A DNA stretch of 64,000 nt from Liolophura sinensis. Its lineage: Eukaryota > Mollusca > Polyplacophora > Chitonida > Chitonidae. The translations under genes and the position numbers were made by a program. Numbering within the stretch: position 1 is the stretch's first letter; every line of letters starts with the position of its first letter. The notes beneath the pieces were generated by a model, which saw only the letters and a list, made by a program, of their open reading frames with translations, was not told where the DNA came from and searched no databases. Positions 26,085 to 52,925 of the stretch are shown here, in pieces. The DNA lies in assembly GCF_032854445.1 (NCBI RefSeq), contig NC_088303.1, positions 11,043,501 through 11,107,500 of the forward strand. Direction: 5' to 3'.

Positions 26085-26290
26085 TTTTACGTGTCGTTAG
26101 TCGATGTTTCTTACACACTACGTCTGCTTCATCGCCAAATTTTCCCGCGCCCTATTAAGGACACCAAGGTAATGGAGGACGATGCTGGTGCTCGAGGACC
26201 AGGAGGCAGACCTTCTGGAAAACAACTTTCTCGGAATCTGCCACAGTGGAAAGTATACGCCAACCAACTAAACCAAACTAATATACAAAC
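26085..26290 (+). pseudogene. C1q-locus exon 2 fragment (ancient, + strand)
   Basis: The upstream words TTTCTTACACACTACGTCTGC match the sequence just before exon 2 in the C1q copies at 40.3 and 50.76 kb. Downstream, GGRPSGKQLSRNLPQWKVYA parallels the Gly-rich linker and the start of the C1q domain (QGRPSSRQLPRKLPQPEVYV) of the intact gene. The C1q domain itself is missing after ANQ. It shows that the C1q cluster once extended further left. Confidence 0.65.
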
Positions 26291-27027
26291 ATAAGAACCA
26301 TTAGCAAAGGAACGTTCGTATACCAGCCTTTTTACCTACTTGCATAAGAAATTAAGGTAAGGGATGGGACCTCGTTTTAGGCATGTGGCAGATAGTGCTT
26401 TCAGTTGCCGGTGCTTCTTACGGCGTTTTAGTGGTATTAATATTACCAGAATGTCCCAGGTATAGAAAGATTGAAGAGTTTAACCAAAAAGCGCTACACT
26501 CTGAAGCACAACTACCAAGTGATAAATGTGAATAAATGCAAATGAAGATAAGATTTTTCAGCATTTCAGTCACATAGTGGCTATACATATATAAAACGTC
26601 ACAAGTAATGACGTCATGATGTCGTCATTTTAGTTACGATACCCCGAGTGAGTAGAGTCACTATATTCTGAAGGTGACTATGTATAAAAACTATTAAGGA
26701 GTAATTTTCACCAGGCCCCGTCTTTCTCGTTCACATAAATGGTATATTGACGACCTGCTAGCTTTACGCAAATATGTAACAAAGGCTCTGGAAGATATTA
26801 ACCTACCTTTCTACCTAAGGAAATCACAGACTCTCCAGAAGGAAGATGGTATTGGTTACTTTTAGTATTTCAAGAAGCCGGTTACGCTTGACCAATTGCG
26901 AAACACCACCCTGTTGTCGCTGCTTTGCTTTTACTCTGTGTGTTGTACGTCAATAATTATGTTGTATTCCTGCATAAGCCAGGATTCTTCTGAAGGGCTA
27001 AGCATCGCCGAGGTAGCCTATCCCTAG
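26291..27027. other. No feature seen
   Basis: Intergenic. Short frames only; no protein or repeat family recognised. Confidence 0.5.
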
Positions 27028-27930
27028 TTTATTTACTACATGTACATAAGGTCTTGAAATTGGAAATTGCTCAAACATAAATGGCATAGTCCCGAACTGC
27101 TTTATTTTTGTTAAGCATTTATATTTGAGAACTTTTTCATTTATATTATAAGCCCCAGGTGATGAAAACAAAGCTTTACAGAAAAAGCCAGATGTTTTTA
27201 ATAAAAAGAAAAGTTTCTTCTAAACACTTTATCCCTTATCGGATCAGAGGGAAAGCAAAAAAAAAACAACAATACAAACAGATTTGACAATAAAATCCAA
27301 CTCAATTCAGGCATGTATGCATGAGTCAGGCCTATCCATAGTGTAACAGTTATTACATATAGGGCAAAATTCCATCCATAAAGATTACCTATAATGTAAT
27401 AATGAATCCATTATGTGTAGTAAGTGCTACCCGTATAATGTCATACCCTTGACCAAAAATAACATTTGGCATAAATTCCTGTACATTGGAATGTAAAGTA
27501 GAAAGCACAAAGTACAGAAGTACAGATATAATCCCTCTGGTTGAGAAGGGCTGATGTTTTCTCCAGAGTATGGGTTGTTATAGAATACTTTGATGTTGTG
27601 GCGATTGTTGTAGTGTTGTAGTGATATTAAGTTCCTCTACAAGAACCTAATGGGAACAGTTCTTCCAGTAAATGTAACAATAATAGGAGATTTGTGCACA
27701 AGTAAAGCTGCAGACATGTACTGAAATACCGATGTATTGATCATAAAATCAACCAATTTACCTAATATACAAATAAATAAATAAGTAAATGAATAAATAA
27801 ATGAAAAAGAATTATGCATTTCAACACCTTATATCGATGTGAATCGTTATCCACTCGCTAAATGGACATTGGTTTGTTGGCTAATAGACGATAAATAAAC
27901 TATCCCAAACTCAACTGAAGTCGTTCAGCT

Positions 27931-28395
27931 ACGTATGCCACAACTCTACAAAGATTCCAAAAAGGCATCAGTCCCAAGTTCAAGCTCGATTTACGGCGGA
28001 ATCTGGAAGCTGTACCACCAAACTTGTAGTTGCTCTCTTAACGAAGGTATTGCAAAAAGTACAATCAGAAAAAGTACTTCAGCAAAAACAACACAAAAAC
28101 TCTCTTGAAAACTGCTAACGTCTCACTGAAGAACTAGACAGTCAAATACATATAACGTATCGTCATATGTCTACTTGGGATTTCTCCACTCTTTGTACTA
28201 CAATTCCTTTGTCAGTCATACGGGACGGAAATCAAAACAGAAGGAATCGTTTGTCGACCTACATCAAACATGTTAGAAGTAACATCTAAATGTGACCAAA
28301 GGCTCGAGTCTGTGATATACTGTTTTGAGCCAAAGCCAGGTGCTCAGGATTGCTTGGAGAGTTTACACGCTCAAACAAACCACTGATCACTACCA
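27931..28395 (+). pseudogene. Reverse-transcriptase relic, + strand
   Basis: Decayed coding sequence with frameshifts. MPQLYKDS and, in another frame, ARFTAESGSCTTKLVVALLT match the N-terminal RT blocks of non-LTR / Penelope-like elements. A later block ends ESVIYRF/CDILF-like. The same material lies in the opposite orientation at about 29,000-29,600, so this is one arm of a large inverted pair. Confidence 0.55.
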
Positions 28396-28505
28396 TCTCT
28401 AGTTTAAACCAGCTTTATTACATATATTAGTTTACTATATGATGACAATCTTAAATACGGGTACAACATTTGTAGGTGTACGATCACAATCTCCCAGTTA
28501 GCAGC

Positions 28506-28618
28506 GTTGTTTAAGCTACATGGTAACGTTCACTACCTAAAGTGTTGTTGAAGCTACATGGTAACGTTCACTACCTAAAGTGTTGTTTAAGCTACCTGGT
28601 GATGTTCACAACCTAAAG
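28506..28618. repeat. 38-bp tandem repeat, three copies
   Basis: GTTGTTTAAGCTACATGG followed by TAACGTTCACTACCTAAAGT, three times with small changes. It is repeated in copy B at 62,556-62,668. Confidence 0.9.
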
Positions 28619-28962
28619 ATGGAACAATGAGCGTTGATGCTCATAGTCCTGACATCGGCGGTACCATCGCCATTTTCCATTCAGTTTACACTCGTATGTT
28701 AATTTGAATTTATCCTTACAGTTTTTTTTATGACATAAGATGCCCATTTTAACGGTTGGAGATTTATATACGTATGTCTCCCCAAAAGATCAGTGATGAC
28801 TTGAAAGTGAATGTATTTTTAAGGACTAATTACAGACATATAGGAATATGTATAAATAGTTGACATTTTGTTCACAGATGTCCATTTGGTGCCCGATGAT
28901 TGCTTTACGTTATACCGCTGAAGAACGAAATATCCCACGTGGCTGGTGACCCATGTATGTAG

Positions 28963-29760
28963 TTAAACTGAAGAGGGCTGTGTTGCCTTCGACGTGATGC
29001 AGCAGTGACCGATTTTATTAAACGTCGATACCATTAGTGATAAAATTCTGTCAATTAAATCTGTGTAAGGAATTGTAGTATGAAGAGTGGAGAAATCCCG
29101 AGTAGACATATGACGACACGGTATACGTATTTGACTGTCTAGTTCTTCAATGAGACGTTTGCAGTTTTTAAGAAAGTATTTGCTGTTGTACAGAAGTAGT
29201 TTTCTCTGACTGTACTTTTGCAATACCTTCGTTAAGAGAGTAAGAGTTAAAAGAGATTTTTTTGTAAAGGTTTCGAGCTCCGAGAGGACAATTTTCTAAT
29301 TAGCTCTTATATTTATGTTTTTCGGCTCTGAAGACTTCGGACCAACTTTTGCAATACCTTCGTTAAGAGAGCAACTACATGTATAAGTTTGGTGGTACAG
29401 CTTCCAGATTCCGCCGTAAATCGAGCTTGGTCTTGGGATTTATTTTTGTACAATTGTGGCATATGTACGGATGTATCCCTCTGGTTGAGACAAGGCTGAT
29501 GTTTTCTCCAGAGTATGGTTTGTTATACAATACGTTGATGTTGTGGCGATTGATGTACTGATATTCAGCTCCTCTACAAGAACCTGATGGGAATAGTTCT
29601 TCCAGTAAATATAACATTATTAGGAGATTTGTGCACAAGAAGAATAATTTGAAAGCCATCAATATGAAGGTTATCAAGCACCTTTCGCGCTGTAAAGCCC
29701 TTCAGAACTTGTTTGACTGTCTTGTGAGCATCGGTATTCGTATAAAGGATTGGATACACG
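28963..29760 (-). pseudogene. Reverse-transcriptase relic, - strand (unit 1)
   Basis: Reading right to left: VLDNLHIDGFQIILLVHKSP and NNVIFTG (about 29,700-29,580), MPQLYKN (near 29,460), ARFTAESGSCTTK (near 29,410), then STRDFSTLHTTIPYTDLIDR and ILSLMVSTFNKIGH (about 29,100-28,990). These follow the block order of animal reverse transcriptases with DFSTLYTTIP and GIPMGTxCAPLLADL motifs. Several frameshifts and stops mean no intact protein. Assignment to Penelope-like or other non-LTR elements is uncertain. Confidence 0.6.
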
Positions 29761-30424
29761 AATTTTTTCTTTACAACCTTGGACCAAATGTCAATGCCTG
29801 AAGGTTCTACCTTCTCCCCTTTAGACTAATTTTTTCTTAAGAATTCAAGCTCTGGAAGGACAATTTTCCAGTTAGCTCTTATATTTATGTTTCCCGGCTG
29901 TGAATACTTCGGACCAATCACCATTACTTACAACATTAAGGTTACTAGTCATGAGATGTTTCCAGGGATTGAAACTAAAGTCTGACGATGCACAGTCACA
30001 AATGTATCGCCCAGATGTATACTTAGACGCGGAATTATATCTCTTGGATGCGATGTGTTCGGTGTATTAGTGGGAATTATGCATATTTGGACTCTCGTAT
30101 GTTGAAACAGAAAGTGTAGAACTGGACGTTGCTCAATATTTTAAGAGAAAGTGCATAGAATAATGTGCGTAGAGCGTGTATGCAATATGGTTGTTTCAGA
30201 CAAACCTACAGGATAGTTCACAGTCATATTGCTCTGAACCGACTTCCTTAACTTCCTCACACCATGGCACTCGAACGGCTGTGTTGTGTTAATGTCGTGT
30301 TATTGACTAGATGTTAGGTTGCCAACGGGTCACATTCTACAGAGAAATATACTGCTGACAACTTGTATATATACAAATGTCCTTTATAATTCTTGACAAC
30401 TGGTTTAGTTTTAACCGTTACCGA

Positions 30425-30740
30425 CTGAGGACTGGTACATTTTACCATTAGAGGGTGCGGGGTGGTATATTTTAATAGTAACGGGTTCGAATTGCTTTAT
30501 ATTGCCATCAGCGGGTGAGAACTGGTATATTTTACCGTTGGCCTTTGTAGACTGGTATATTTTACCATTAGCGGATGAGGATTGGTATATTTTACCATCA
30601 GTTTGTGAGGACTGGTATATTTTACAATCAGTGGGTGAGGATTGGTATATTTTACCATCAGTTTGTGAGGACTGGTATATTTTACCATCAGTGGGTGAGG
30701 ATTGGTATATTTTACCATTACCGAGTGTAGACTTAAATAC
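30425..30740. repeat. 30-bp minisatellite, about 10 copies
   Basis: Unit approximately GAGGACTGGTATATTTTACC + ATCAGTTTGT. A unit of 30 keeps frames open on both strands (YILPSVGEDW on +, KYTNPHPLMV on -), so the long frames here are artefacts. It lies just 3' of a C1q copy; the equivalent array is at 35,445-35,890. Confidence 0.93.
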
Positions 30741-31626
30741 GAATTTCGGATGCATCTTTAGAACGTTTTAGGAGATCTTCATGATCCACTCTAATTATTC
30801 ACACCAAAACATCCCGCTTGAAATGTTTTCATTCTTAAAGAAACACCACCAGCAAACCATTTTAAATTATTGTTTACTCTTTCTGATTCTTTGGGCGGTG
30901 GACGTTCTTTGTCTTGCCGTTTTGCGCTGTCAAACGTTCGTTGAAGACCAGTTGTTTACCACCAATACGCTGTGCATATCTGTACGTCACATGTGGGAAT
31001 GTTCGTCCGTAACTTGCCAAAGGGTTTACACCAGGAATTCCGTTTCACTTCATGCATAAACCTGAGCGCGGTCGTAGGATAGGTAGACGAGTCTTTAGTA
31101 AACAATAACAAAACCAGTAAAAATATTTAAATCAAAGTATTATTTCCTTTAACGATGTGGTTTCAAGTTTTAGACATGTTATACATCATATAGGTCTTTT
31201 TCGAAAATATTGAATAAATCATACCTGTAGCTTTTACCTTGAAAATGACAAACGTAACGTACCTAACAGAATAATCAGTAAATCATCACCTGCATGCAGT
31301 AAACAAAACACGGAGAACGAATTAAGTCTTGAAAAGGATATTTTAATTCCAACTTAATATAGTCAACATGACATCGAAAACTGTTACATGATGGCTGTAG
31401 AGAACATTTTAACAGAGGAAAGTTTGTTGAAAGTTGATTAGGAATAAGTGTAGCTATGAATGATGACGTTGGGCGTGGTAGATGTTTGTTTAACTTTTGT
31501 GTGTAACTACTTCACAATTTGCTTGCACTTGACTTGAGATACAAATTACAAACAACACTTCCCATGCATAGACATTATCTCTTTGAAACTGAGGGAGTAA
31601 CCAAAAAGTTATACGACAAAGATCAT

Positions 31627-33227
31627 TTACCATTTGTCCATTGGTACAGCTCTGGGGATTTTCAGATCCGTGAATCTACCCGGTTTAACCAGAGACACGC
31701 TGAAGCTACAGAAACCGTTATTCTCACAGCCAATGATGGTTCCTTCACGACCGACAACACTGAGCTGGTCAAACTGGTCAAGGTAGAGGACGGCGGAGTT
31801 GGAGGCCGTGACACAATCACCTTCTGCCTTGGCCGAGTTGACGACTTCTCCGTTCTGGGTCAGATCCACATGGGCCTCTTTGGTGCTGCCTTTCTTGCTT
31901 TGTACGTGATAGTTGATGGAATAGATTCCTGGGACAGGAGCAGTGAAGACACCATATTCTGTGTTGTACCCGCCATTGATGTTTGTGATGATGTTGTCAA
32001 AGCCAACAGGTGCGGTTTTATAGAAGTACTGGTCAATTGTTCTGGCCACAGATGTGGCCACGGCGTCCTGAGGGTTGACGTATACTTCCGGCTGAGGCAG
32101 TTTCCGGGGAAGTCGGTCAGACGGGAAACCAGATTGTGAAACAGATATGGTGTGAAAGAAGCACTGAGGAATGAGATGCATAAAAATTAACATATTGGTG
32201 CTGAATAGTGTACATGAGTGGCCATCAAAGACCAATCAAGTCATTTACCTGGCAGCTTATTACCTGAAGTCGATGTGCATTCCGAACGAGACGACTGTTC
32301 CCTCTGGGAGAAGGTGCAGAACTCAAACAGCTGTATCCAAGATTTTCTCCAGATCAGAATATGTTTTAAGAACTGATTTACATCGTGATAACATAGTTTA
32401 AGTTTAAGTAAATAACCTAATGAAAGGATGTGTCTGTTTTTGGAAGAGCTGAAGAAGGTTTGCTAGCCTAACACTAACTACCCAAAGCCCTGGAGGCTAT
32501 ATCATGGTGATAAATGTTATCACCTCACTTCAATGGAGCAATTATAACAAACTGTGATTATTCCAGGTTATAAAGGTATTATATAGCCTAAACATGGTCA
32601 TAGGTTTCTGATCTATATTTCTGTGCTTCCATTTTCATTTAGCAGCAAATTTTTACCACTTGGGTGGCATTAATTTCCACGCAAAGCATATGTCAAGCTT
32701 AGACCTAAGTTTCATTATCACACAGCACAAAATGTTTTAAAGCTTAGTGAATGAGTCAGTATCTAAGATAATTTACATATACATTCTTTCTTACGGTCAG
32801 TTATCTAACAGTGACCACATCCATCTGTCTGACCGCTTCGTGGGGTAAAGAGCGTCAGTCTCAGAGCATGCAAACAGGGCCGCTTGGACGAGTGTTAGTA
32901 TAAAGTGACTTGGTGGGGTTTCATGTTGCGTTGTCTTCGCCATGGTGCTTCAGTGGGGGCAGCTCATTGACGCCATAGGTTCACGCTACCACAAGAAGAC
33001 GGAGTATATGTATACACACATAATCATCGTCAAATGACATAAACAAAAAAGTATTGCTAAGTACGACTTAAAACCCCAAGGATACATATACATGCTCCCC
33101 TTTTAACCAGCTATTCAGTTATTATTTTTGTAATAAAATAATTATCATTGTATAACATTCTCCACGGCATGATATGCCTGACAGGTAAACATACGATGGC
33201 CAACATGACAAGAGTCAGGGACGTCAT
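31627..33227 (-). pseudogene. C1q-domain gene, copy A (defective)
   Basis: Exon 2 (about 32,120-31,627) encodes a full C1q domain (from PQPEVYVNPQDAVATSV, through GVFTAPVPGIYSINYHV and CENNGFCSFSVSLVKPG, to a stop after VPMDKW). The Gly-rich segment is absent, and the position of the intron acceptor reads TCTG instead of TCAG. Exon 1 survives only as 38 nt after the ATG (33,227-33,190): the rest of the signal peptide and the splice donor are deleted, and intron sequence follows directly. The promoter is conserved with copy D, including an AATATAAG TATA variant near 33,330. Probably cannot make a secreted product. Nearly identical to copy C over exon and intron. Confidence 0.8.
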
Positions 33228-33949: not shown

Positions 33950-34195
33950 GATTTATAAATGTCTATTTTACAGCTGATGGATGATGTACGAGTGTCCTTT
34001 CAACAGCTTGTGATAGATGTACGAATACCCACTTCGCAGCTGGTGATTAATGTACGAGTTCCCACTTCACAGCGAGTGATCGGTGTATGAGAGTAATTGG
34101 TATTTGAGTGTCTACTTAACAACTGTGTCTGATCTATAAATGTTCACTTTACTGGAGATTGGTCCATGAATGTCCACTTAACAGCTGGTGATTGA
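33950..34195 (-). repeat. 33-bp minisatellite, degenerate
   Basis: Diverged units built on CAGCTGGTGATTAATGTACG + AGTTCCCACTTAA. It directly follows the RT relic on its 3' side, as does the better-preserved array at 52,355-52,560 on the other strand. Confidence 0.7.
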
Positions 34196-34196
34196 T

Positions 34197-34850
34197 CTAG
34201 GGTATTCTCTTAACAAAGGAAATTTTGGTCTTTGTACAAATATAGAACCATATTAAATGTATGAGATCACCCAAAAGGAGAGCACAACTGGTACTCATCG
34301 GAATAAATGTACACTGGTGATATATGATTTCACCTAATTTCACACAGATGTTATTAAAGAGAAATTCATGCAACTCGACGAACAAGGAAACATCCCATAA
34401 ATGGTGACCCTTGTATGTAGTGGAACTGAAGAGGGCTTTGCTGCCTTCGAAGTGATGTACCGGTGACCGGTTTTATTAAACGCCGATACAATTAGTAATA
34501 AATCTCTACCAGTAAAATCTGTGTAAGAAATAGTATTATAGAGAGTTCGAAAAATCCCAAGTAGACATAGGCTGATACGGTATATGTATTTGAGTGTCTA
34601 GTTCTTCAGTGAGAGGTGTGCAAGTTTTAAGAAAGTTTTCGCAGTTATACAAAAGCACTTTCCCTGAATATACTTAGTTAAGAGAATAACTACAAGTTTG
34701 ATGGTACAGCTTCCAGACCTCGCCATAGATCGAGCTTTGTCTGGGGATTTATGCTGTTTTGAATCTTTGTAGAGTTGTGGCATATGTACGGATATACCTT
34801 CTGGTTGTGAAAGGGCTGGTGTTTTCTCCAGAGTATGGGTTGTTATAGAA
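34197..34850 (-). pseudogene. Reverse-transcriptase relic, - strand (unit 2)
   Basis: Blocks on the minus strand: MPQLYKDSK (near 34,780), ARSGSCTIKLVVILLTK (about 34,740-34,680), and FVELHEFLFNNICVKLGEII then FIPMSTSCALLLGDLIHLI (about 34,385-34,240), the counterpart of the RT block GIPMGTxCAPLLADLFL. The gene is broken by stops. It is more complete towards the RT palm than unit 1. Confidence 0.65.
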
Positions 34851-35444: not shown

Positions 35445-35890
35445 AACCATTACCCACTGAGGACTGGTACATTTTACCATTAGAGGGTGAGGGGTGGTAT
35501 ATTTTACCATTAACGGGTGAGAACTAGTATATTTTGCCATGAGCAGGTGAAGACTGGTATATTTCACCATTAGCTTTTTTGGACTGGTATATTTTACTAT
35601 TAGGGAGTGAGGATTGGTATATTTTATCATTACCGGATGAGGTCTGGTATATTTCACCATTAGAAGGTGAGGACTGGTATATTTCACCATTAACGTTTGT
35701 AAACTGGTATTTTTTACCATTAGCGGATGAGGACTGATATATTTTACCACTAGCGGATGAGGACAGGTATATTTTACCATTAGCGGATGAGGACTGGTAT
35801 ATTTTACCAATAACGGGTGAGGACTGGTATATTTTATAATCAGCGGATGAGGACTGGTAAATTTTACAATTAAAGGGCGCAGACTGAAAT
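35445..35890. repeat. 30-bp minisatellite, about 14 copies
   Basis: Same unit as 30,425-30,740 (GAGGACTGGTATATTTTACC + ATTAGCGGAT) in the equivalent position of unit 2. The two overlapping long minus frames are repeat artefacts. Confidence 0.93.
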
Positions 35891-36785: not shown

Positions 36786-38722
36786 TTACCATTTGTCCAT
36801 TGGTACAGCTCTGGGGATTTTCAGATCCGTGAATCTACCCGGTTTAACCAGAGACACGCTAAAGCTACAGAAACCGTTGTTCTCACAGCCAATGATGGTT
36901 CCTTCACGACCGACAACACTGAGCTGGTCAAACTGGTCAAGGTAGAGGACGGCGGAGTTGGAGGCCGTGACACAATCACCTTCTGCCTTGGCCGAGTTGA
37001 CGACTTCTCCGTTCTGGGTCAGATCCACATGGGCCTCGTTGGTGCTGCCTTTCTTGCTTTGTACGTGATAGTTGATGGAATAGATTCCTGGCACAGGAGC
37101 AGTGAAGACACCATTTTCTGTGTTATACCCGCCATTGATATTTGTGATGATGTTGTCAAAGGCAACAGGTGCGGGTTTATAGAAGTACTGGTCAGTGGTT
37201 CTGACCACAGATGTGGCCACGGCGTCCTGAGGGTTGACGTATACTTCCGGCTGAGGCAGTTCCCGGGGAAGTCGGTCAAAAGGTCTACCTGGTTGGGCAC
37301 CTCCGACACCGCCAGCACCAACACCCACTCTATCACCTCCGGCAACTCCAGCGCCTCCGCGCCCTCCAGCACTTCCAATTCCTCCGGGCCCCCCAGCACC
37401 TCCAACGCCTCCAGCTCCTCCGAGTCTTCCAAGCCCTCCGAGTCCACCAGCAGCTCCGAGTCCTGCACCACTATCACGTGCACCATCTTGATTAGCTCTT
37501 GCAGGACCCTGGCGCCCTCCTCTACCAAAGGGACTTTCAAACGGGTAACCTGATTGGTAAGCAGATATAGTGAGAAACAAACACTGAGAAATGAGACGCA
37601 TAAAAATGAACATAGTAGTGCTGAATTAGGCCATCAGAGACCAATCAAGTCAGTGACCTGGCCGCTTGTTACCTACAGTGTATACTCAGTCGCTGCATAT
37701 TCTAAACGGAACGACTGTTCCCCCAGGAAGAAGATAACACAAGCAGAACTCAAACACCTGTATCGAAGATTTCCTTCAGATCTGAATATGTTTCAGAACT
37801 GATTTGATTGGTTATGAAATAACTTAAGTTAAAATAACTAAATAAAACGATGTGTCCGTATTTTGAAGACCTGAAGAAGGTTCGCTAGACTAACACTAAC
37901 TATTCAAAGCCCTGGGGCTATACCATGGTGACAAATGTTATCACTTCACTTCAGTGAAGCAGTTATAACAAACGGCGGCTATTTTAGGTCATAAAGGTAT
38001 TATATAGACTAAACATGGTCATAAATTTCTGTTGTATATTTCTGTGCTTTCATTTTAACATAGCAGCAAATTAATTCTCACGTAAAGTATATGTCAAACA
38101 GTAAATAGCTGAGACCTGAGTCTAATTATTACAAAGCACAAAATGTTTTAAAGCACAAAATGTTTTAAAGGGAATGAATCTGTATCTTAGATAATTTACA
38201 TATACGTTCTATCTTACGGTCCGTTATCTAAAGGTGAACCACATCCATCCGTCTGACCGCTTCGTTGATTAAAGAGCATCGGTCTCAGGGCATGCAAGCA
38301 GGACTGGTTCGCCCGGTGATTAATATAATGTGACTTGGTGGGGTTTGATGTTATGCTGTCTTCAGCATGGTGCTTCAGTGGGGGCAGCCCATTGACACCA
38401 TGGACTCACGCTACCACAAGAAGACGCAGTATATATATACACACGTAATGGCTGTTCATCGTCAAATGATAATAGCAATAAAGGTATTGCTAAATACGAC
38501 GTAAAACCCAAAGCATAAATAAACATTCCCCCTTTTAAACAACTATTTAGTTATTGTCTTTGTAATGAAATAATAATCATTGTATAACATTCTCCACGGC
38601 ATGATATGCCTGACAGGTAAACCTTACCTGGACCATGGTTGTAGTAAGGTGGAGACCAACCACCGAATGCAGGGAATGACGAACATACAGACGGCCACCG
38701 TGACAAGAGTCAGAGACGCCAT
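36786..38722 (-). CDS. C1q domain-containing protein, copy B (one-base frameshift in exon 1)
   Basis: Two exons on the minus strand: exon 1 38,722-38,628 (95 nt, ATG to donor CAG|GTAAGG) and exon 2 37,549-36,786 (764 nt, acceptor TCAG|GTTACC). Exon 1 begins MASLTLVTVAVCMFVIP like the signal peptide of copy D, but TTCCC replaces TTCC after the ATT codon. This one-base gain makes the exons out of phase (859 nt total); without it they would join exactly. Exon 2 has a remarkable GGX-rich region of about 60 residues (GGLGGLGRLGGAGGVGGAGG type), then RELPQPEVYVNP and a complete C1q domain ending PMDKW. The product would be a secreted C1q protein, a family used in molluscs for pattern recognition and biomineral or byssal matrices. 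Its upstream flank differs from that of copies A and D. It may be a very young pseudogene or carry a sequence error. Confidence 0.65.
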
Positions 38723-40290: not shown

Positions 40291-40339
40291 TAGCGTGTAA
40301 GAAACACTGGGGAAAGACACATAAGAATTTACACATTGT

Positions 40340-42000: not shown

Positions 42001-42053
42001 TTTATTTGATTTATTTATGTGAATTTTGTTTTACGCCGAACTCAAAAATATTA
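42001..42053 (-). mobile_element. SINE 3' end fragment
   Basis: TTTATTTGATTTATTTATG, TGTTTTACGCCGAACTCA and AAAATATT only. Confidence 0.6.
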
Positions 42054-42720
42054 TAATTGCTTGTAGACCATATAATTAAATGGTCCCCCTACCATACTGT
42101 TGGCTTGATATTAATATCGAGCAATGTTGATATCTACGCCAGCATCTGTATAGTATAATGATGTATAATATCTGACTTTCGCAGCTCATCAGTTGAACAG
42201 TCGTATTACATTCTATCAGTCAAAGTTAAGAGCAGTATAATCTAGCTCCCGTTTGGATACTTTTCATAATTCAGAACTGCATTTTCTCAGCGTAAAACGT
42301 AACGAAACAAAATTTAAATTAAATCAGATGAACGTACTTTAAAGTTAACACCATATCAGGTATCCTTTATCCTTTTCCACGCTTTTATGTCTTCTGGCGC
42401 TTTTCCTTCACTACTGGAAACTACAAATTTTGTACAAGTATTTAAGACTGGGGATAGTCACCATGTAAAAAACTCATTAATATAATACAGGTCATTTAAA
42501 CCAGAGCGGGTCGCGTGCAGTGGTTTGCTTGAGCGTGACTCGAATCTTTGGTCATATTTAGATGCTACTCCTAACATTGATGTAGGCCGACAAGCGATTC
42601 CTTCTGTTTTGATTACTGTCCCATATGACTAAACAAAGTAACAGTTTTATGGAATTGGTAGGACCTGTCTAAAATGTTTTGGATCTTTCGTAAGTGTCAG
42701 CGAAGTGTAATTTTCAACAG

Positions 42721-43494
42721 TGTTACGACCCAAACTGTCTGTATTATAAAGAGATGGCTTGGTCGAAATACACGACAGTTTAGCCGCACCAAAAAGTAAC
42801 CAAAACCAGCAGATTTTATTTTACAACAATTTATTAGGATTAACAAGAACAGATAACAAGACTTTTACAAATACTTAAGTGCTTAAGTTTAACAAGAAAG
42901 GATAGCAGTATCTATACAAATACTAAAGTACTTACATGTACAACGGTGTCAAGTCCAAACGGACGCATATATTCCACAATGCGGAAAACCATACAGGCAT
43001 AAATGCACAAATAACAGGGAAAATCCACAGTATAACTGAGTGTATGACGAAATATACACAAAATTCCACAGACAAGGTCCGTGTACTAATAAGCACTGTG
43101 TACACAAGAGCACAAATTAAATATACAAGTTCAGACTGGACAAGTACTCGGTGGAGATATGATATAACAAAGCCAGAGGCTATAAAGACACCAAAATTCA
43201 GCACAAAAGGCCTACTAAAGTAACACACAGCGAAAGCATCCAAAACTCTCAATAATTGTCCCTTCTCTCCCTTTGACCTGCTTTCATATGTTTTTTATAT
43301 AGACTGGTGGAACTTTCTAGAATAAGAAAATTCTTGAACACTTGTTGTAAACAAACAGGCCCCGAACTGAGCGTATTCTGGAACATTCTAGAGGCTGTCT
43401 GCCTCTAGAGGTAGAGGCAGACAGCTGGCCCTGAACTCAGCATATGTAAACAGTGGCAAGCTAAATTTAGAAGCTGACGGCAGTTCACATAACA
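42721..43494 (-). mobile_element. Solo LTR of the Ty3/gypsy element, 774 bp
   Basis: Begins TGTTACGACCC and ends CACATAACA, so the termini are inverted (TGTTA...TAACA). It matches the 3' LTR at 55,263-55,998 along its length. Flanked by ACAG on both sides (4-bp target duplication, or AACAG with one base less of LTR). A TATA-like TATAAAAAA in LTR orientation lies near 43,295. The inverted paralogue at about 53,850 has the uninterrupted site CAACAGTTATGG. The 106-codon minus frame inside it is discussed as a finding. Confidence 0.9.
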
Positions 43495-43540
43495 ACAGTT
43501 TTTGGAGATCAAGGGTTATCAGTGGTGTAATGATGTATTT

Positions 43541-43790
43541 AAGTTATTTATTTGATTGGTGTTTTACATGGTATACTCAAGAGTATTTCACTTACACGAC
43601 AGCGGCCAGCATTATAGCTGGAGGAAACCGGGCAGAACCCGTGAGAAAATCACGATCATCCGCAGGTTACTAGCAGACCTTCCCACGTATATATGGAGAG
43701 GAAGCCAGCATGAACTGGACTTTAACTCACAGCATTGGCTTCTGGGTCATTGCGCAGCGCTGGCACTTCGGTCGCGAAGGCCCTTGCAGA
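43541..43790 (-). mobile_element. tRNA-derived SINE, reverse, in left inverted arm
   Basis: Tail TTATTTATTTGATTGG, GGCCAGCATTATAGCTGGAG, CGCAGGTTACTAGCAGACC and tRNA-like end TGGGTCATTGCGCAGCGCTG. The same insertion is present in the partner arm at 53,545-53,812, so it predates the duplication. Confidence 0.85.
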
Positions 43791-44199
43791 ATAATGGCCT
43801 TTTAAATGTATTACTGTTTGGCGTAGATACAATCTGTTAATTTTAACAGAAAGTCTGCTGTCTGAGTAATGCTAGAATGTCTTCTGGTATTTCAACATAT
43901 TATTCTAATAAATATAACACACATATTATCTTATTTCAACATAAAGGCTCTATTAAATTAACAGGATATTATGTTGAAAATGACACATCATTCTGTTATA
44001 ATAACAGGTTACAACTGATTTTCCGTTCAAGTTAACAGATTAATTTTTTGAGTGTACTAGAAGATGTTATATAACTTCTTTTACAAACACAAGCCCAAAA
44101 ACCGTGTTTTTTATCAATGTACGACGCCTTTAACACAAACTGCATGAGAAAATCTTCTGTGAAAGACATCTGATTTGTTGGTCATCAAATACCTTTTGC

Positions 44200-46011
44200 T
44201 CAGTAAGCTCCCCCAGAACTTGTTTGACTGCCATGAGCATTGTTTTGGTATAAGGAATGCATACACAACTGTATTCTTTACAAATGTAAACCAGTTGTAA
44301 GTGTCAGAGGGTTCTACCTTCTCCCGTTTAGACCAAATTTTTGGAAAGTTTTCAACCTCCGCACGGACAATTTTTTCATTAGCTGTCACATTATCTATCA
44401 TATCTGTACGTCACAAGTGGGGATGTTCGTCCGTGGCTTGGCAAATGTCGGTGGTTTACATCAGGAACGCCGCCTCACTTCATCTAAACAAAACACGGAG
44501 AACGAATTTAATGTTGAAAAAGGTTTATTTTCCAGGTCAATGTAATCAACATGACATCGAAAAACTGTCATCGGACGGTTCTAGAGAACATTTTAACAGA
44601 AGAAAATTTGTTGAAAGTTGATGGGGAATAAGTGTACCTATGAATCATAGCGTTGGGCGTGGTAGATGTTTGATTAACTTTTGTGTGTAACTACTTCACA
44701 ATTTGCTTGCACTTGACTTGAGATATAAATTACAAACAACACTTCCCATGCATAGACATTATCTCTTTGAAACTGAGGGAGTAATCAATAAGTTATACGA
44801 CAAAGATCATTTACCATTTGCCCATTGGTACAGCTCTGGGGATTTTCAGATCCGTGAATCTACCCGGTTTAACCAGAGACACGCTGAAGCTACAGAAACC
44901 GTTATTCTCACAGCCAATGATGGTTCCTTCACGACCGATAATACTGAGCCGGTCAAAATGGTCAAGGTAGAGAACGGCGTGATAGAGAACGTGATAGTTG
45001 ATGGAATAGATTCCTGGCACAGGAGCAGTGAAGACACCATATTCTGTGTTATACCCGCCATTGATGTTTGTGATGATGTTGTCAAAGCCAACAGGTGCGG
45101 GTTTATGAAAGCACTGGTCAATTGTTCTGACCACAGATGTGGCCACGGCGTCCTGAGGGTTGACGTATACTTCCGGCTGAGGCAGTTTCCGGGGAAGTCG
45201 GTCAGACGGGAAACCAGATTGTGAAACAGATATGGTGTGAAAGAAGCACTGAGGAATGAGATGCATAAAAATTAACATATTGGTGCTGAATAGTGTACAT
45301 GAGTGGCCATCAAAGACCAATCAAGTCATTTACCTGGCAGCTTATTACCTGAAGTCGATGTGCATTCCGAACGAGACGACTGTTCCCTCTGGGAGAAGGT
45401 GCAGAACTCAAACAGCTGTATCCAAGATTTCCTGCAGATCAGAATATGTTTTAAGAACTGATTTACATCGTGATAACATAGTTTAAGTTTAAGTAAATAA
45501 CCTAATGAAAGGATGTGTCTGTTTTTGGAAGAGCTGAAGAAGGTTTGCTAACCTAACACTAACTACCCAAAGCCCTGGAGGCTATATCATGGTGATAAAT
45601 GTTATCACCTCACTTCAATGGAGCAATTATAACAAACTGTGATTATTCCAGGTTATAAAGGTATTATATAGCCTAAACATGGTCATAGGTTTCTGGTCTA
45701 TATTTCTGTGCTTCCATTTTCATTTAGCAGCAAATTCTTACCACTTGGGTGGCATTAATTTCCACGCAAAGCATATGTCAAGCTTAGACCAAAGTTTCAT
45801 TATCACACAGCACAAAATGTTTTAAAGCCTAGGGAATGAGTCAGTATCTAAGATAATTTAATAATTTACAATTTCTTTCTTACGGTCAGGTATCTAACAG
45901 TGGACCACATCCATCTGTCTGACCGCTTCGTGGGGTAAAGAGCGTCAGTCTCAGAGCATGCAAACAGAGCCGGTTGGACGAGTGTTAGTATAAAGTGACT
46001 TGGTGGGGTTT
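44200..46011. repeat. Segmental duplication unit 3 (partial, C1q copy C)
   Basis: 44,200-44,390 matches RT-unit flank at about 29,700-29,880. It then jumps directly to the C1q 3' flank (TATCTGTACGTCACAAGTGG), so the minisatellite is missing. From 44,640 to 46,011 it is nearly identical to 31,450-32,940 and stops abruptly inside the intron before exon 1. Confidence 0.85.
44811..45233 (-). pseudogene. C1q-domain gene, copy C (exon 2 only, internal deletion)
   Basis: Minus-strand exon 2 nearly identical to copy A, but about 99 nt of the C1q domain are gone: after SINYHV the frame passes directly to AVLYLDHFDRLSIIGREG, losing the strand-loop segment that contains HVDLTQNGEVVNSAKAEGDC in the other copies. 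The reading frame is kept. No exon 1 exists because the duplication ends in the intron. A folded, secreted product is unlikely. Confidence 0.85.
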
Positions 46012-47205
46012 CATTCAAAAATGGGGGGAATGAATCTGTCCTGATTTCTTACTTTATATACTGCTCTATTTCATTACACAGAGCCTTAAAGCCAGAACGA
46101 CGGTGTTATAATTGGCAAAGGGTCACAGTAAGAAGTAATAATATTTTTCCCAGCATGTACCAGCTGATGATCTGTATACGAATATTTCATACACTTCTGA
46201 CACCTGGCGCCCGAGTGTTCTTTTTTTCACTCCTTCCCTAGGCGCATTTACCCCCTTGTATTGTCGTGGAAATTGCGCCAGGCGCAGCTTGAGGCTGCTT
46301 CATACAAAGGGTCCCTGGGTTCATGTTGATGCTTTTTTTTCGGCTAAACAGGAAAATTTTCCAAAGACTCTGGTGTAAGAGCAATTTTTGCGCACCTGTG
46401 GCAGACAATTTAACTTATTTGTTATAATATATATGTACATACAAACTGATTGTATAATTTACCTATACTATGCTAAATGATATTTGTAGTTTGTGCTGTA
46501 ATTGAGAACAAGTTCAAAGGTATCAAACATTACCCGTTATACATTACCGGACATTGGCATGCCAATCGCCAACCGTTAAACTAATAGTCGTATGCTAATC
46601 AGCAATAATCCTTCACGCAGGTAGTCGGATAAACTGGGAAAAATATTATATACCCTGCGTTGTTTTGAAACGTTTATTTGGATGTTTTCGACTGGTCTTT
46701 TCAACAATATTAATGTGTAACGCAATCAGAAAGCGTTCGTTTACATCCTTCATGGCCCACCGTCGATGTGTCTTGACAATGGAATTTCCCGATCGTCTGA
46801 ACTTCCAGGACTGGGCGGAGCCTAGGGCGTGTCTGATGGAGTTCTAGATCCCACTGATAGATTATGAGATAGCCTTGCCTTATTGTTTGTTTACGAATAT
46901 TTTTCAATTATAAGTAAGTATTAGACGGAATTAACGTCAGGCATTCAGATTAACTCAGAGGAACACGATCGCTGTCACCAGAAGTCGCGACTGAGCTAGT
47001 TGTTCTACTTACTGCTTACTTTGGGGCTTACTCGACAGGTTCAGTCTTAAGTGCATGCTATCTTTCCTTCTGTCTGTTCAATACTTCCTTCTCTCAAGTT
47101 CAACTTATCCATCTCTCTATCCTGTACGCATTCTCTCCTTTTCTCTCCCCTGGCCTTTCTCTTCTACCGGCACTTTGAACTTGAAGTATGGGGACAGATA
47201 TTATT
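46012..47205. other. No gene seen
   Basis: Unique-looking AT-rich DNA with short frames, slightly GC-richer near 46,200-46,330 and 46,730-46,850 but without recognisable protein. Confidence 0.5.
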
Positions 47206-47214
47206 GTGCATCAT

Positions 47215-47272
47215 CATCATTAAGTGAAATATTCTTGAGTACGGCGTAAAACAACACACAAATTAATAAACA
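47215..47272 (+). mobile_element. SINE 3' end fragment
   Basis: TTAAGTGAAATATTCTTGAG, TACGGCGTAAAACAACAC and an A-rich tail. Confidence 0.65.
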
Positions 47273-49399
47273 AATACAATATTGGTATGCACCAATGCCA
47301 CAAAGTCACAGAATTATAAAGGCATATATTTAGGCATATATGAAATATTTAGGCAAATGTGAAAAGGGAAATATAGAATATACATTGACGCGGTCATCAT
47401 ATGATTTGAAGGTTATCAAATTATTACCCTGGTGAGCACAAGGCGTAACGGCTACATTGTAATTTGTTACTACCTAATGCATGCGAGATATTTTAATTAA
47501 ATTTACATATTACCTCCTGAGTATGAAGATATCAGAACGTTAATCTTGATGTCATAATATGATAAGACGGCATATGGAAAAACATGTCCCACATCGTCAT
47601 CGTTTGATTCTTTCACAATACTCCCTTCCTAATTACAAAGCGGCTGATTGTATCTGTGGCTATTTTATCAGTTTCGGTGTGACATATTACATATAATATT
47701 CTAAATATAAACACATCAAACGTTTAGTCGTCATCACTGACAGGAGACACAAGTCGTTTAAAATAAAAACCCAAGGACACCTCCATAGAGACTCGTTTTC
47801 CTCAGCAGTACATGAAAGAGAACTATTGATATATTTGCAGCCAACTGCGCGGCTTCAACGCACGTGCAAGTACGTCATGTTAAGACGTACGTTAGTTACA
47901 TTAGTCGCGTTTCGCGTTCTTTGAATTACACATTAAAGCAGTATAACGATGTTCGTGTAACGGGCTAAAATGAATTTCTATCGAAAATCGTCATTATATG
48001 ATACATCATTGAGAATATAAGTACGACGTTAAAACCCAAGCACTCACACACACTCACTCATTACGAATATTAATATGTTTATTTAGCTGGTGTCTACACC
48101 GTATTGAAGAATAATTTACTAATACGACGGCGGTCAGCATTCTGGTGGGACAAAGACCCATGAGCATCCTCCGAATGTTGAAAGACGTAGGAGTTAGAAT
48201 GAGTAATTGTGTTGCGCTAACACGCTAACCACCAGCCTTATTACGAATGTCCTATACGTCCAAGTCTAACATCAGTCAAATGTAGGATTATTCTGACAAG
48301 GTTAACACGCGACACATAGATAAACACAACACAGGTATGCATTCCTCTAAAATACAAGCCAACAGTTTGAGGGAAAAAAATTAATTTTCAGTGAACCAGA
48401 TAAGGCCTAAAAACAAAACATACCATTAACTTTGATTTAAAAACATCCTTTTGTATTATATGTAAAACATCTGATGAGCTACTGTTTCTGCAAGTACAGT
48501 GATACAAAAAGCCATAAATAGTAGCATAAATGAAATTTCCACAAGGTAGTGATAAAAAGTCTATTGTATAAAGAATACTAATATTTTTTAGGCAAGCATT
48601 CCGATATTAGTGTATCCAATACAGGCGAAAACAGTTATGTTAAAACATAAACAGTGTCTCCATACGCACTACATGATGTAGATGAAATAACCTTCCTTTG
48701 TTTAACACCACGCGCAAGCGGGTAAAACATATATCAAGAGTTTAACCGTTTATCAGTGCGTGTACTCAGATTACGTCATCGTTAACAGATAAATTATGAA
48801 TTGCCAAAAAACACGAAATGGTGTTATAAAATTCATCCTGAATTTAAAAACTGTAATTTGTTAAGCACAAATTTAGTTATAAATATATCTGAAACAATCA
48901 GATGACACAATTTCATCAAATAACCTTTACGAATAAACCTAACTATATTCAATAAAAACATATTGTTTAATTATGAAAACAATCATCAGATCAGTAAATG
49001 TCATTAAATCTTACATGACAGTGAAATGGATGAACAAAGAAATCATCTAGGACGTCCAGAAATACCTATACTATGATCAGCTTCAATTAAATGTCAGAGG
49101 CATAAAATTAAGACACAAGAAGTGTAGCTCTACATCCCCAATGCTCTTTTCAAATTTGTTATCGTTCAGCTGGCAACTTAGTACAAAAGTAGATAACAAT
49201 GTATCTGATAAGGTACGAAAACAATGATATATAGTAAATGGGTATTCGTGTATACCTGAAAAAGCGAAATATGTAATAACGTGATTCTGTATCTTATTAA
49301 ACTCCAGACCTTGTTTCTTTTGAAGTCTCCATGCATAATGTTTGTGTTCAAAAACATAACAAAGCCAATAGACTTTCCGCTGCAAGTAAAAAGTCGCCT
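47273..49399. other. Intergenic DNA upstream of C1q copy D
   Basis: One reverse SINE (48,076-48,234). The remainder has no protein similarity or matched repeat. Confidence 0.5.
48076..48234 (-). mobile_element. tRNA-derived SINE, reverse, with internal deletion
   Basis: TTTATTTAGCTGGTGTCTAC, TACGACGGCGGTCAGCATT and GGTGGGACAAAG, then a jump to the tRNA-like end GCGCTAACACGCTAACCACC. Confidence 0.7.
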
Positions 49400-49545
49400 C
49401 AAGGTAACTTATGTGGTCCCCACCCTACTCAGCGTGTATATAAGTGACCAGGTTTACCGAAACAACACAAACGCCTCTGGAACAGTTTTACAGAAGACTT
49501 TTTGGAGATAGAATTACTTGTGAGTCCTCAGATCAACCTACAAAG
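49400..49545 (+). promoter_or_regulatory. TATA promoter and 5' UTR of C1q copy D
   Basis: TATATAA at 49,437-49,443 after CCCCACCCTACTCAGCGTG, about 103 bp upstream of the ATG, so a TSS near 49,468 and a short leader are expected. The same promoter, with a weaker TATA, precedes copy A. The preserved block over both copies argues for function. Confidence 0.65.
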
Positions 49546-51378
49546 ATGACGTCTCTGACTCTTGTCACGGTGGCCGTCTGTATGTTCGTCATTCCTGCAT
49601 TCGGTGGCTGGTCTCCATATTACTACGAGCATGGTCCACACGGCTCAGGTAAGGTTCAACTGTCTGGCATATCTTGCCGTGGAGAATGTTATACAATGAT
49701 AATTATTTCATTACAAAGATAATAACTGAATAGCTGGTTAAAAGAAGGGTATGTATATGTATGCTTGGGTTTTACGTCGTACCTAGCAATACTTTATTGT
49801 TATTGTCATTTGACTATGAAGAGTCATTACATGTGTATGCATATACCGCGTCTTCTTGTGGTAGCGTGAGTCCATGTCGTCAATGGGCTGTCCCTATTCA
49901 AGCTCCATGCCGAAGACAGCATAACATGAAACCCTACCTCGTCACATTATACTGAACAGTGGGTCAACCAGTAGTGTTCCCTTGCTCCAGTCTTTAGGTG
50001 ATGAGCGCCAGGCCATACAGCAGCAAATACAATTTAGAGCCTTTTGCATGACCCGACCAGGGTTTGATCCCAGGTCTCCCGACTTTAATCCACGAAGCGG
50101 TCAGACGGATGGATGTGGTCCGGTTTTAGATAACAAGCCTAATGAGATTTAGATCTAAATTAATTACCGTTTAACAGATACTTTATGTGGGAATTAATCG
50201 CACACAAGGGATAAGAATTTTCTGCTGAGTAAAAATGAAAGCACAGAAATATAGACCAGAAACTTATCATCATGTTTAGGCTACATAATACCTTTGTAAC
50301 CTGGAATAATCACAGTTTGTTATTACTGCTCCATGGAAGTGAGGTGATAACATTTATCACCATGGTATAGCCTTAGGGCTTTGAGTAGTTTGTGTTAGGC
50401 TAGCGAACCTTCTTCAGGTCTTCCAAAAACGGACACTTTGTTTCATTTGGTTTTTTGCACTCAACTGTTTTCTTGACATTCGTATACAAGCCATCAACAA
50501 ACAAGGACGTTCCAGGTCAATATTCGCAAGGCCAATTCCCCAAAACGACATATCACACAAAACACCCAAAAACTAACATAGTATACAAATTACAAAAACA
50601 TGACGGAATCATGAAAAGAGAAGACGTCAACAGTTTTCAGTGATGTTGGAAAGACATAAGGTCTTTAATTCTCATACTCAGAGTTAAATTCAAATCGTGC
50701 ACCATACCAGAATATCAGTTGTCGATAACGAAATATCTCATTCTTCAACTTTTAGGACACACTACGTCTGCTTTCGAATAAGGTTATTCGTATTTTGCAG
50801 GAACCAATCAGGCAGGAGCTGGACGACTCGGAGGTGTTGGGAGACGAGGAGGTGCTGTTGGACAAGGTAGACCTTCTAGCCGACAACTTCCCAGGAAACT
50901 GCCTCAGCCGGAAGTATACGTCAACCCTCAGGACGCCGTGGCCACATCTGTGGTCAGAACCACTGACCAGTACTTCTATAAACCCGCACCTGTTGGCTTT
51001 GACCACATCATCACAAACATCAATGGCGGGTACAACACAGAATATGCCGTCTTCACTGCTCCTGTGCCAGGAATCTATTCCATCAACTACCACGTACAAA
51101 GCAAGAAAGGCAGCACCAAGGAGGCCCATGTGGATCTGACCCAGAACGGAGAAGTCGTCAACTCGGCCAAGGCAGAAGGGGATTGTGTCACGGCCTCCAA
51201 CTCCGCCGTCCTCTACCTTGACCAGTTTGACCGGCTCAGTGTTAACGGTCGTGAAGGAACCATCATTGGCTGTGAGAATAACGGTTTCTGTAGCTTCAGC
51301 GTGTCTCTGGTTAAACCGGGTAGATTCACGGATCTAAAAGTCTCCCGAGCTACACCGGCACCTTACGGAAGACGCTGA
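49546..51378 (+). CDS. Secreted C1q domain-containing protein, copy D (intact, 226 aa)
   Basis: Two exons: 49,546-49,648 (103 nt, donor TCAG|GTAAGG) and 50,801-51,378 (578 nt, acceptor TTTTGCAG|GAACC), joined in phase to 681 nt including the stop. Residues 1-20 are a signal peptide (MTSLTLVTVAVCMFVIPAFG). Then come a short aromatic stretch (WSPYYYEHG), a Gly/Arg-rich linker (about 33-60), RKLPQPEVYVNP, and a C1q jelly-roll domain (about 80-212) with FTAPVPGIYSINYHV, DLTQNGEVVNSA, ASNSAVLYLDQFDRL and CENNGFCSFSVSLVKPG. There is no true collagen Gly-X-Y run. C1q-domain proteins form trimers that bind ligands outside the cell and in molluscs are diversified immune lectins or matrix proteins; the ligand here is unknown. 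It lies inverted relative to copies A, B, C and E and is the only copy whose exons, splice sites and promoter are all sound. Confidence 0.92.
49990..50120 (+). repeat. tRNA-like SINE remnant in C1q intron
   Basis: The intron carries a B-box-like GGTTTGATCCC followed by CAGGTCTCCCGAC and CCACGAAGCGGTCAGACGGA. Diverged copies of the same block lie in the introns of copies A, B and C (for example about 32,820-32,870), so it was present in the ancestral gene. Confidence 0.45.
50500..50590 (+). repeat. Dispersed repeat, copy 3 (partner 1-85, 16,620-16,700)
   Basis: GGTCAATATTCGCAAGGCCAAT, then CACAAAACACCCAAAAACTAA and ATAGTATACAAATT, inside the copy D intron. Confidence 0.4.
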
Positions 51379-51457
51379 ACCATATTTCTTGTTTGACTTC
51401 CCAGAAAGACAGTCCTAAAGCACATAAATCCTTTACGTCCAAATTCATTTTCATGAA

Positions 51458-51463
51458 ATTAAA
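51458..51463 (+). terminator. Candidate polyadenylation signal of C1q copy D
   Basis: ATTAAA variant 80 nt after the stop codon. No AATAAA is closer. Confidence 0.4.
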
Positions 51464-52165
51464 CAAATTTCATTCCTTTGTTTAACACGGTCCATTGACA
51501 GTTTACAAAGTCATGCTGATCATATTTAATCATATTAAAACACCTGTTTTATACACCACCCCATTGGTAAATGTTCTTTGTCGTATAACTTATTGGCTAC
51601 TCCCGTACTTTCAAAGAATAGTAGATAATGTCTATGCATCGAAAGTGATGTTTGTAATTTGTATTCCCGTAAAGTGCATGCAAATTGTGAAAGTAGCTAG
51701 ACATAAAAGTTAACAAAGTCATCTTACCACGCCCAACTCTTTGATTCATAACTACACTTATGAACCGACATATAACAGTTTTTCGCTGCCATGTTGATTA
51801 TATTAAACTGGGAATAAACTACGTGTTTCAAGAACCAATTCATTGTCCTTGTTTTGTTTACTGCATGCAGGTGATGATTTATTGATGATGATTTATTTAG
51901 TAGGCACGTTTTTACGTTTAGCATTTTACGGAAAAAGCTACAGGTATGATTGATTTATTCAATGTTTTTGAAACACAGCTATATATGATGTAGAGCAAGT
52001 CTGAAACTTGAAACCACATCTTTCAAAGAAACAACACTTTGTTTAATTGTTTATGCTGGTTTCTCATTGTTTACGAAAGAATGTTTTACCTGTCTTACGA
52101 ACGTGCTCAGTTTTATGGATAAAGTGAGACGAAGTTCTCTGGTGTAAACCTTTGGCAAGCCACGG
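51464..52165. repeat. 3' flank of C1q copy D, inverted relative to the other copies
   Basis: 51,560-52,160 is the reverse complement of the material 3' of copies A and B: GTTCTTTGTCGTATAACTTA, TGCATGCAAATTGTGAAAGT, and the block at 52,040-52,165 with TTTGGCAAGCCACGGACGAA. The frames here are shadows of that non-coding flank. Confidence 0.7.
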
Positions 52166-52169
52166 ACGA

Positions 52170-52345
52170 ACATTTCGTTGTTGTAATTCGTTGTTCAGAA
52201 AGTTCAATGAATTTTTCATTAACAACACTTATGTGAAATTAGGTGATATATATCAACGGTGTATATTTATTCCGATGAGTACCAATTGTGCTCTCCTTTT
52301 GGGTGATTTCGTACATCTAATATGGTCCTTTATTTGTACAAAGAC
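52170..52345 (+). pseudogene. Reverse-transcriptase relic, + strand
   Basis: FNEFFINNTYVKLGDI then FIPMSTNCALLLGDFVHLIW, the same palm block as at 34,240-34,385 on the other strand. Only about 55 codons are left. Confidence 0.65.
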
Positions 52346-52354
52346 CAAATTTAT

Positions 52355-52562
52355 TCTGTTAAGTGTACATTCCAATACCAATCACCAGGTGTTAAGTGTA
52401 CATTCCAATACCAATCACCTGCTGTTAAGTGTACATTCCAATACCAATCACCAGCTGTTAAGTATACATTCCAATACCAATCACCAGCTGTTAAGTATAC
52501 ATTCCAATACCAATCATCAGTTGTTAAGTATACATTCCGATACCACTCAACAGCTGTTAAAT
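52355..52562. repeat. 33-bp minisatellite, six copies
   Basis: Unit CTGTTAAGTGTACATTCCAA + TACCAATCACCAG. Being a multiple of three, it keeps frames open. It follows the RT relic directly; the degenerate counterpart is at 33,950-34,195. Confidence 0.93.
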
Positions 52563-52599
52563 GGGAAATCAGTCATTAGTTGTGGACATTGTTATGCTA

Positions 52600-52925
52600 A
52601 TCCACATTCGCTAGGAGAGCATTCGCATACCAGCTGTAAGCTCGGTCACCAAATGGACATCTGTGAAGAAAATGTCAGCGATTTATGCACATTCGTATAT
52701 GCGTGTAATCAGACGTTAAAAATACATTCGCACACAAACCACCACTGATCGTTTGGGGAGACATACGTGTTTCAATTTCCAACCGTTAAAATGGACATCT
52801 TAAGTCATAAAAAACTCCAAGGATAAATTCAAAATAACATACAGGTGTAAAATGAATGGGATACGGCGATGATTGTTGACGTTGAGCATCAAGGCTCATT
52901 GTTCCTTCTTTAGGTTGTGAACAAC
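52600..52925 (-). repeat. Segmental duplication end, inverted match to 28,600-28,900
   Basis: In reverse complement it contains AACAATGAGC, GCCTTGATGCTCAACG-like, CATTTTAACGGTTGG, ACGTATGTCTCCCCA and ACAGATGTCCATTTGG in the order seen at about 28,620-28,890. It marks the distal end of the inverted unit carrying copy D. Confidence 0.75.

Follow-up and report, generated by a model that had tools for sequence, protein, structure and literature searches.

Expansion of C1q genes is well known in bivalves, as an earlier note on the locus described here had stated, and its course by tandem duplication is already published. Another set of clustered immune genes, the Sp185/333 (SpTransformer) family of sea urchins, codes for a protein unrelated to C1q. 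In the oyster Crassostrea virginica, the accessible portions of PMC6835236 describe sC1q-like paralogues for which tandem duplication is held to act via unequal crossing over, and report a low prevalence of duplication driven by transposable elements. For Mercenaria mercenaria, those of PMC8905726 describe C1q-domain-containing (C1qDC) genes with tandem, dispersed and segmental duplication, and for the Sp185/333 clusters those of PMC5103432 describe repeats at the edges of the duplications, with recombination and conversion proposed. Here we analyse a C1q cluster in a stretch of 64,000 nucleotides (the window, whose coordinates are used throughout) from the mollusc Liolophura sinensis (contig NC_088303.1, positions 11,043,501 to 11,107,500). 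It is probable, in our judgement, that a two-exon C1q gene was multiplied here by segmental duplication, that copies then decayed, and that recombination between copies went on once they had been duplicated.

The locus resembles that of C. virginica, as presented in the accessible text of PMC6835236, in its clustered close paralogues, its secreted type of product, its two exons with a single intron, and exons that are more alike than the intron. It differs in that most copies are damaged, one pair is inverted, one tract suggests exchange, and the length of a Gly-X-Y-like segment is variable. Neither 'pseudogene' nor 'gene conversion' was found in a word search of that text, pseudogenization being mentioned in its discussion in general terms only. 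The modes of duplication are like those of M. mercenaria, for which the accessible text of PMC8905726 gives no anatomy of a single locus and does not use 'gene conversion'. With Sp185/333 the locus has in common clustered immune genes in segmental duplications, with tandem repeats nearby; there, according to the portions of PMC5103432 available, short repeats surround all genes and the family has no pseudogenes, whereas here a 30-bp minisatellite accompanies two of the five copies. Within a partial coverage of the literature, no paper on C1q gene conversion in bivalves or molluscs was found by title.

Five C1q copies and two fragments

As the earlier note had proposed, five C1q copies (A to E) and an exon fragment lie within 27 kb, with an intron fragment further right:

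26167-26266, plus strand: 5' fragment of a C1q exon 2 (Gly-rich end and start of the C1q domain), found by local alignment and tblastn
31627-32163, minus strand: copy A exon 2, C1q frame open, starting at an alternative acceptor
33195-33227, minus strand: copy A exon 1 remnant, followed by GTATGT
36786-37549, minus strand: copy B exon 2, with a Gly-X-Y-like segment and the C1q domain
38628-38722, minus strand: copy B exon 1, with one extra base
39577-40275, minus strand: copy C exon 2, with multiple insertions and deletions (indels)
39825-39945, unstranded: insertion in copy C resembling a short interspersed nuclear element (SINE), with a 7-bp target-site repeat
44811-45205, minus strand: copy E exon 2, with an in-frame loss inside the C1q domain
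49437-49442, plus strand: TATA-like box of copy D
49546-49648, plus strand: copy D exon 1, with a signal-peptide-like start and a phase 1 donor (CAG/GTAAGG, the slash marking the junction)
50783-51378, plus strand: copy D exon 2; a second in-frame acceptor would move its start to 50801
59229-59477, plus strand: C1q intron fragment (201 bits)

Four of the copies exceed the curated cut-off (23.7 bits) of the Pfam C1q family PF00386: the frame of A at 31627-32235 (minus strand) scores 58.1 bits, that of B at 36786-37625 (minus) 58.5 bits, that of E at 44811-45320 (minus) 39.7 bits and that of D at 50782-51378 (plus) 53.2 bits. The rest of the census is based on homology. The single frame of copy C submitted to Pfam (39851-40195) gave no match, and the copy as a whole (about 39577-40275, minus strand) is alignable to the others in both DNA and protein. 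The exon fragment aligns locally with D at a score of 58, against a maximum of 26 in 500 shuffles, and its tblastn match is of 65% across 20 amino acids. A tblastn search of the window with exon 2 of D (E <= 1) returned D itself, A, B, C, E and this fragment at 26.2 kb.

Copy D has a complete two-exon frame of 232 or 226 residues, depending on which of two exon 2 acceptors, 18 bases apart and both keeping the frame, is used. The layout is that of secreted C1qDC genes of the bivalve type, with a short exon 1, one intron and the C1q domain in exon 2, the signal peptide being judged by eye. Exon 2 matches the solved domains of cerebellin and of C1q-like 2 and 3 (best E value 6e-25); a structure model built from the single sequence, with which the jelly-roll fold of the family was sought, was poor (mean predicted local distance difference test score, pLDDT, of 38). 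The product would be secreted, with a lectin-like role. A pattern search for relatives of D in prokaryote genome contigs matched 63 stretches, none of which was confirmed, as expected for an animal gene. That D is intact stands; that it is the only intact copy, as also claimed, is unproven, the C1q frames of A and B being open through in-phase alternative splice sites. Over 51359-51564, from the end of exon 2 onwards, the 206 bases of D stand in place of 8 in each of A, B and E, so that the C-terminus of D differs, and this difference may set the other three apart from D as a group.

The lesions named in the earlier note are all present. Copy A has lost part of exon 1 through the donor, and in its exon 2 the ancestral acceptor is lost and the Gly-rich segment deleted. 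Copy B is frameshifted, and its homology to D stops at 38734, so that the upstream region common to A and D is missing from it. Copy C carries the SINE-like insertion. Copy E combines a net in-frame loss of 33 codons in the C1q domain with a truncated intron, its homology ending at 46014, and has no exon 1. The statement that each defective copy is broken in a different way is nevertheless inexact, because two losses, that of the acceptor AG and that of the Gly-rich segment, are common to A and E. Where it is retained, the Pro-poor Gly-X-Y run preceding the C1q domain comprises 14 consecutive triplets in B and 4 in D; a repeat in this position is what defines collagen-tailed (type 1) C1q-like proteins. 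A candidate new leader borne by the intron was considered for A, B and E, where an open frame with Met and hydrophobic residues lies upstream of the acceptor, and rejected: 9 of the 12 changed A-B codons are non-synonymous, and the pre-exon stretch therefore looks like unconstrained intron. Further copies of the SINE-like repeat of copy C occur, among the matches listed, at 2420-2613, 7550-7722, 9274-9455, 11622-11829, 43529-43764, 53576-53825 and 60520-60762.

Shared flanks and duplication structure

Self-comparison of the window, which had been suggested in the form of a dot plot, shows that homology between the copies reaches into their flanks, far past the gene. The lack of shared flanks that would have refuted the earlier reading is not seen, and the copies are therefore segmental duplicates that have since decayed. 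Summed over the BLAST pieces kept, gene included, 3663 bases align between A and B (82.5%), 2280 between A and D (84%) and 2469 between B and D (81%). The flank and intron homology of copy C is weak (51.8, 39.9, 31.8 and 24.8 bits), and the end of the B-D homology sits about 490 bases from the recognisable 3' flank of C. Three larger segments belong to the same structure:

42210-46014, minus strand: E arm of an inverted duplication, holding copy E and a solo long terminal repeat (LTR)
49381-54399, plus strand: D arm of the inverted duplication
61005-64000, unstranded: segment F, a recent duplicate of 27012-30301 in the A unit, with an inverted 0.4-kb block; the match runs off the window edge

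The two arms align over 2217 bases (85%, gene included) in inverse order, and their homology includes a further 1.2 kb (53222-54399) on the far side of the relic piece of D described below. Copy D is thus inverted, as had been noted, its opposite orientation following from D and E being arms of an inverted duplication. Segment F aligns with the A unit over 2960 bases (96%). Since this match reaches the edge and the equivalent of the minisatellite of A would start only about 125 bases beyond it, a further unit may follow F outside the window. The duplications as such may have been caused by unequal crossing over.

The 0.4-kb block inverted between A and F lies at 27520-27932 and 61504-61908, in a region holding opposed copies of the relic. 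The solo LTR of the E arm (42721-43481) has a matching empty site in the D arm (around 53854-53871) and was therefore inserted after the D-E duplication. Another copy of this LTR (86% alike) is found at 55263-55997, beside a Gypsy-like element with integrase and RNase H matches at 56.1-57.6 kb.

Possible exchange between copies

Two patterns of divergence suggest that the copies did not evolve independently after they were duplicated. The first is a stretch shared by A and E:

31467-32924 (A side) and 44651-46014 (E side), minus strand: near-identical A-E tract

Within it, 28 of 1339 aligned columns differ, as compared with 27 of 165 columns in the 3' flank next to it (Fisher 4e-13, taken as descriptive), identity falling from 98% to 84%. 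In this flank A is no closer to E than it is to B (23 differences in 167 for A-B). The tract ends at the truncation of E on one side and in the interior of the older homology on the other, and it has the form of a conversion tract, strictly bounded on one side only: 16% divergent homology lies there, and the end of homology on the other. The simplest reading of the sequence is that conversion would have acted along the homology remaining in E.

Tests on the longest shared run agree with this in the trio A, B, E (p = 2e-4 for A-E, 0.007 for A-B and 0.10 for B-E). In the trio A, B, D the values are 0.20 for A-B, 0.009 for A-D and 0.013 for B-D, and in the trio A, E, D they are 0.02 for A-E, 0.30 for A-D and 0.26 for E-D. 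Misaligned columns (721-734 and 2055-2064) were dropped from all of these except the trio A, B, D, and the non-aligning stretches 601-816, 1101-1481, 1501-1711 and 2211-2426 were also dropped from the trios with D. Indels kept C from being used in the run tests, and E from being used in the fourfold comparison given next.

The second pattern is found in exon 2. Fourfold degenerate sites differ at 2 of 68 positions between A and B, 4 of 67 between A and D and 2 of 69 between B and D, compared with 378 of 2687, 214 of 1283 and 189 of 1134 aligned non-coding positions respectively (p = 0.003, 0.010 and 0.0005; the non-coding totals exclude exon 1 and include the far 3' flank). Indels follow the same course, with none in 476 bases of exon 2 between A and B against 16 in 1036 bases of intron. 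Conversion would account for both patterns.

Putting these observations together, an old two-exon gene for a secreted C1q protein would have been multiplied through several rounds of segmental duplication, among them an inverted one that gave the D and E arms and a recent one that gave A and F, with the relic pieces, and in A and B the minisatellite, being carried along within the duplicated segments. Decay would have followed through deletions, a frameshift, the SINE-like insertion and the loss of an upstream region. Homologous recombination may have gone on after duplication, overwriting a stretch of about 1.4 kb between A and E, and it probably made exon 2 more uniform across A, B and D.

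Several points weigh against this reconstruction. The order and likeness of the copies are taken from the assembled sequence alone. The p-value of the A-E tract is descriptive since its edge was chosen after the differences had been seen, and likeness within the tract is uneven, with 11 differences in 794 positions of intron and 12 in 371 of exon 2, a part in which A and B (14/470) are as alike as A and E; a second, later exchange in exon 2 may fit this unevenness, as chance also might. The runs shared by A and B in exon 2 (p = 0.007) and by A-D and B-D (p of about 0.01) are uncorrected for the several pairs compared. When all synonymous sites are set against smaller non-coding totals, the contrast in exon 2 weakens (p = 0.010, 0.028 and 0.057), and the three A/B/D pairs are not independent. 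The low fourfold divergence could also be due to slower mutation or to selection acting at synonymous sites. Open frames in exon 2 by themselves prove little, because a neutral frame simulated with substitutions only stayed open in 45-72% of 5000 cases.

The relic and the minisatellites

In the earlier note the cluster was said to be built around reverse-transcriptase (RT) relics, each copy being coupled to a relic and a minisatellite in a repeating unit of relic, minisatellite, exon 2, intron and exon 1. The elements concerned are these:

28023-29295, strands as given: A-unit relic block, in which a single relic peptide occurs twice in opposed orientations (28023-28226, plus; 28966-29295, minus), found by tblastn
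30426-30718, unstranded: A-unit 30-bp minisatellite, found by TRF
34224-34661, minus strand: B-unit relic, both relic peptides in a row
35458-35872, unstranded: B-unit 30-bp minisatellite, found by TRF
52128-52349, plus strand: D-arm relic piece (second relic peptide)
52356-52560, unstranded: D-arm 33-bp minisatellite, weakly similar to 33958-34084 on the B side

The unit with the 30-bp minisatellite holds for A and B (two of the five copies) and fails for C, D and E, from which this array is missing. The relic consists of two peptide pieces, of which B has both, A and F the first only and D the second only. In D, the 3' flank of the C1q gene passes directly to the relic piece without the 30-bp array, the 33-bp array being found instead. 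Copy E gave no match to a relic peptide, having only relic-adjoining sequence that matches A, and neither relic nor minisatellite was found on the 3' side of copy C. The relic pieces are carried inside the duplicated segments. The sequence does not show a cluster built around them, and the coupling of every copy to a relic and a minisatellite is not what we observe.

The RT label likewise finds no support in Pfam, PDB, NCBIfam or PHROGs, where neither single frames nor pieces joined with X matched an RT up to E = 10; the relic at 28963-29295 had no RT match in Pfam or NCBIfam. A pattern search for the relic in viral contigs matched 7 stretches, none of them confirmed. The pieces are short and decayed, so that an RT origin may be hidden by their decay. 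The two peptide pieces are reminiscent of RT motifs, and a Penelope-like class was considered as a candidate, which we do not claim.

Alternative explanations

Birth and death could in principle have proceeded without any exchange, the copies decaying independently and exon 2 remaining under purifying selection until each copy died. The ratio of non-synonymous to synonymous divergence among A, B and D (dN/dS 0.29-0.33, with a synonymous divergence, dS, of 0.06-0.08) and the absence of A-B indels in exon 2 agree with this, as does the attribution of slower exons in oyster C1q paralogues to constraint in the accessible portions of PMC6835236. Fourfold sites would however be expected to match the introns, which they do not: selection at the protein level would leave fourfold divergence unlowered, and it is constraint on synonymous sites that could lower it. 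The shift in A-E identity in the 3' flank tells against it as well, and we find it rather unlikely. Birth and death as claimed in the earlier note thus holds as to duplication followed by decay, and its simple form may be incomplete in view of the A-E tract and of how little exon 2 diverges at fourfold sites. It also seems unlikely, to a greater degree, that A and B escaped death by yielding C1q proteins through shifted splice sites. In A, the donor ATC/GTATGT and the acceptor CTCATTCCTCAG (cut at its end) join in phase into a complete frame of 189 residues with a signal-like start, and in B three in-frame splice combinations use a GTAAGG donor. Yet the donor of A has 5 of 9 consensus letters and no combination in A reaches a limit of 6 of 9, a combination of the B type arises in 185 of 500 trials with shuffled DNA, B is without the upstream region common to A and D, and a comparison of A with B gives no sign of protein constraint before the exon (the 9 of 12 codons mentioned above). 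Both would then be dead copies.

More doubtful is an active role of the relic or its minisatellite in driving C1q duplication through ectopic recombination. Relic peptides do occur in four of the segments (A, B, D and F) as well as next to the D arm, while none was found in the first 28 kb, and some BLAST pieces shared between copies break within the relic block of A; but the relic pieces lie inside the duplicated segments, where no duplication end has been shown (ends not having been mapped systematically), copy C lacks them and no relic peptide was matched in E, copies C, D and E have no 30-bp minisatellite, and no RT family matches. We give slightly less credit still to an artefact of assembly, in which alternative haplotypes from one heterozygous individual would have been joined end to end, the pairs concerned being at least A-F (96%) and A-E. 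The identity of these newest pairs is, we presume, within the range of allelic divergence in bivalves, and the A-F homology extends to the window edge. On the other hand, A-B, A-D, B-D and the D-E arms are about 15-19% different, E carries an older flank beside the young tract, and the window contains no N. Duplication and decay, with recombination between copies after duplication, thus remains our preferred reading. By analogy with immune gene systems fed by conversion, the damaged copies might even serve as a store of sequence from which recombination would pass segments of the C1q domain, diversifying D and perhaps, via the shifted splice sites, A, an idea to which we attach very little probability.

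Other features of the window

A 50-bp tandem array of about 26 copies occupies 4146-5435 and is open in more than one reading frame. An open frame of 129 amino acids at 19356-19745, which has no Pfam match up to E = 10, is possibly an exon of a host gene.

Significance of the cluster

This cluster is a well-preserved case of the known turnover of gene families, to which it adds modest new evidence for exchange among its members. The large C1q repertoires of bivalves have been attributed to tandem duplication and diversification, and the present locus details the losing side of that process. It also gives a testable hint that exchange between copies, beyond constraint, keeps the C1q exon alike. 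If this were general, phylogenetic trees of C1q paralogues and tests of selection on them would be biased.

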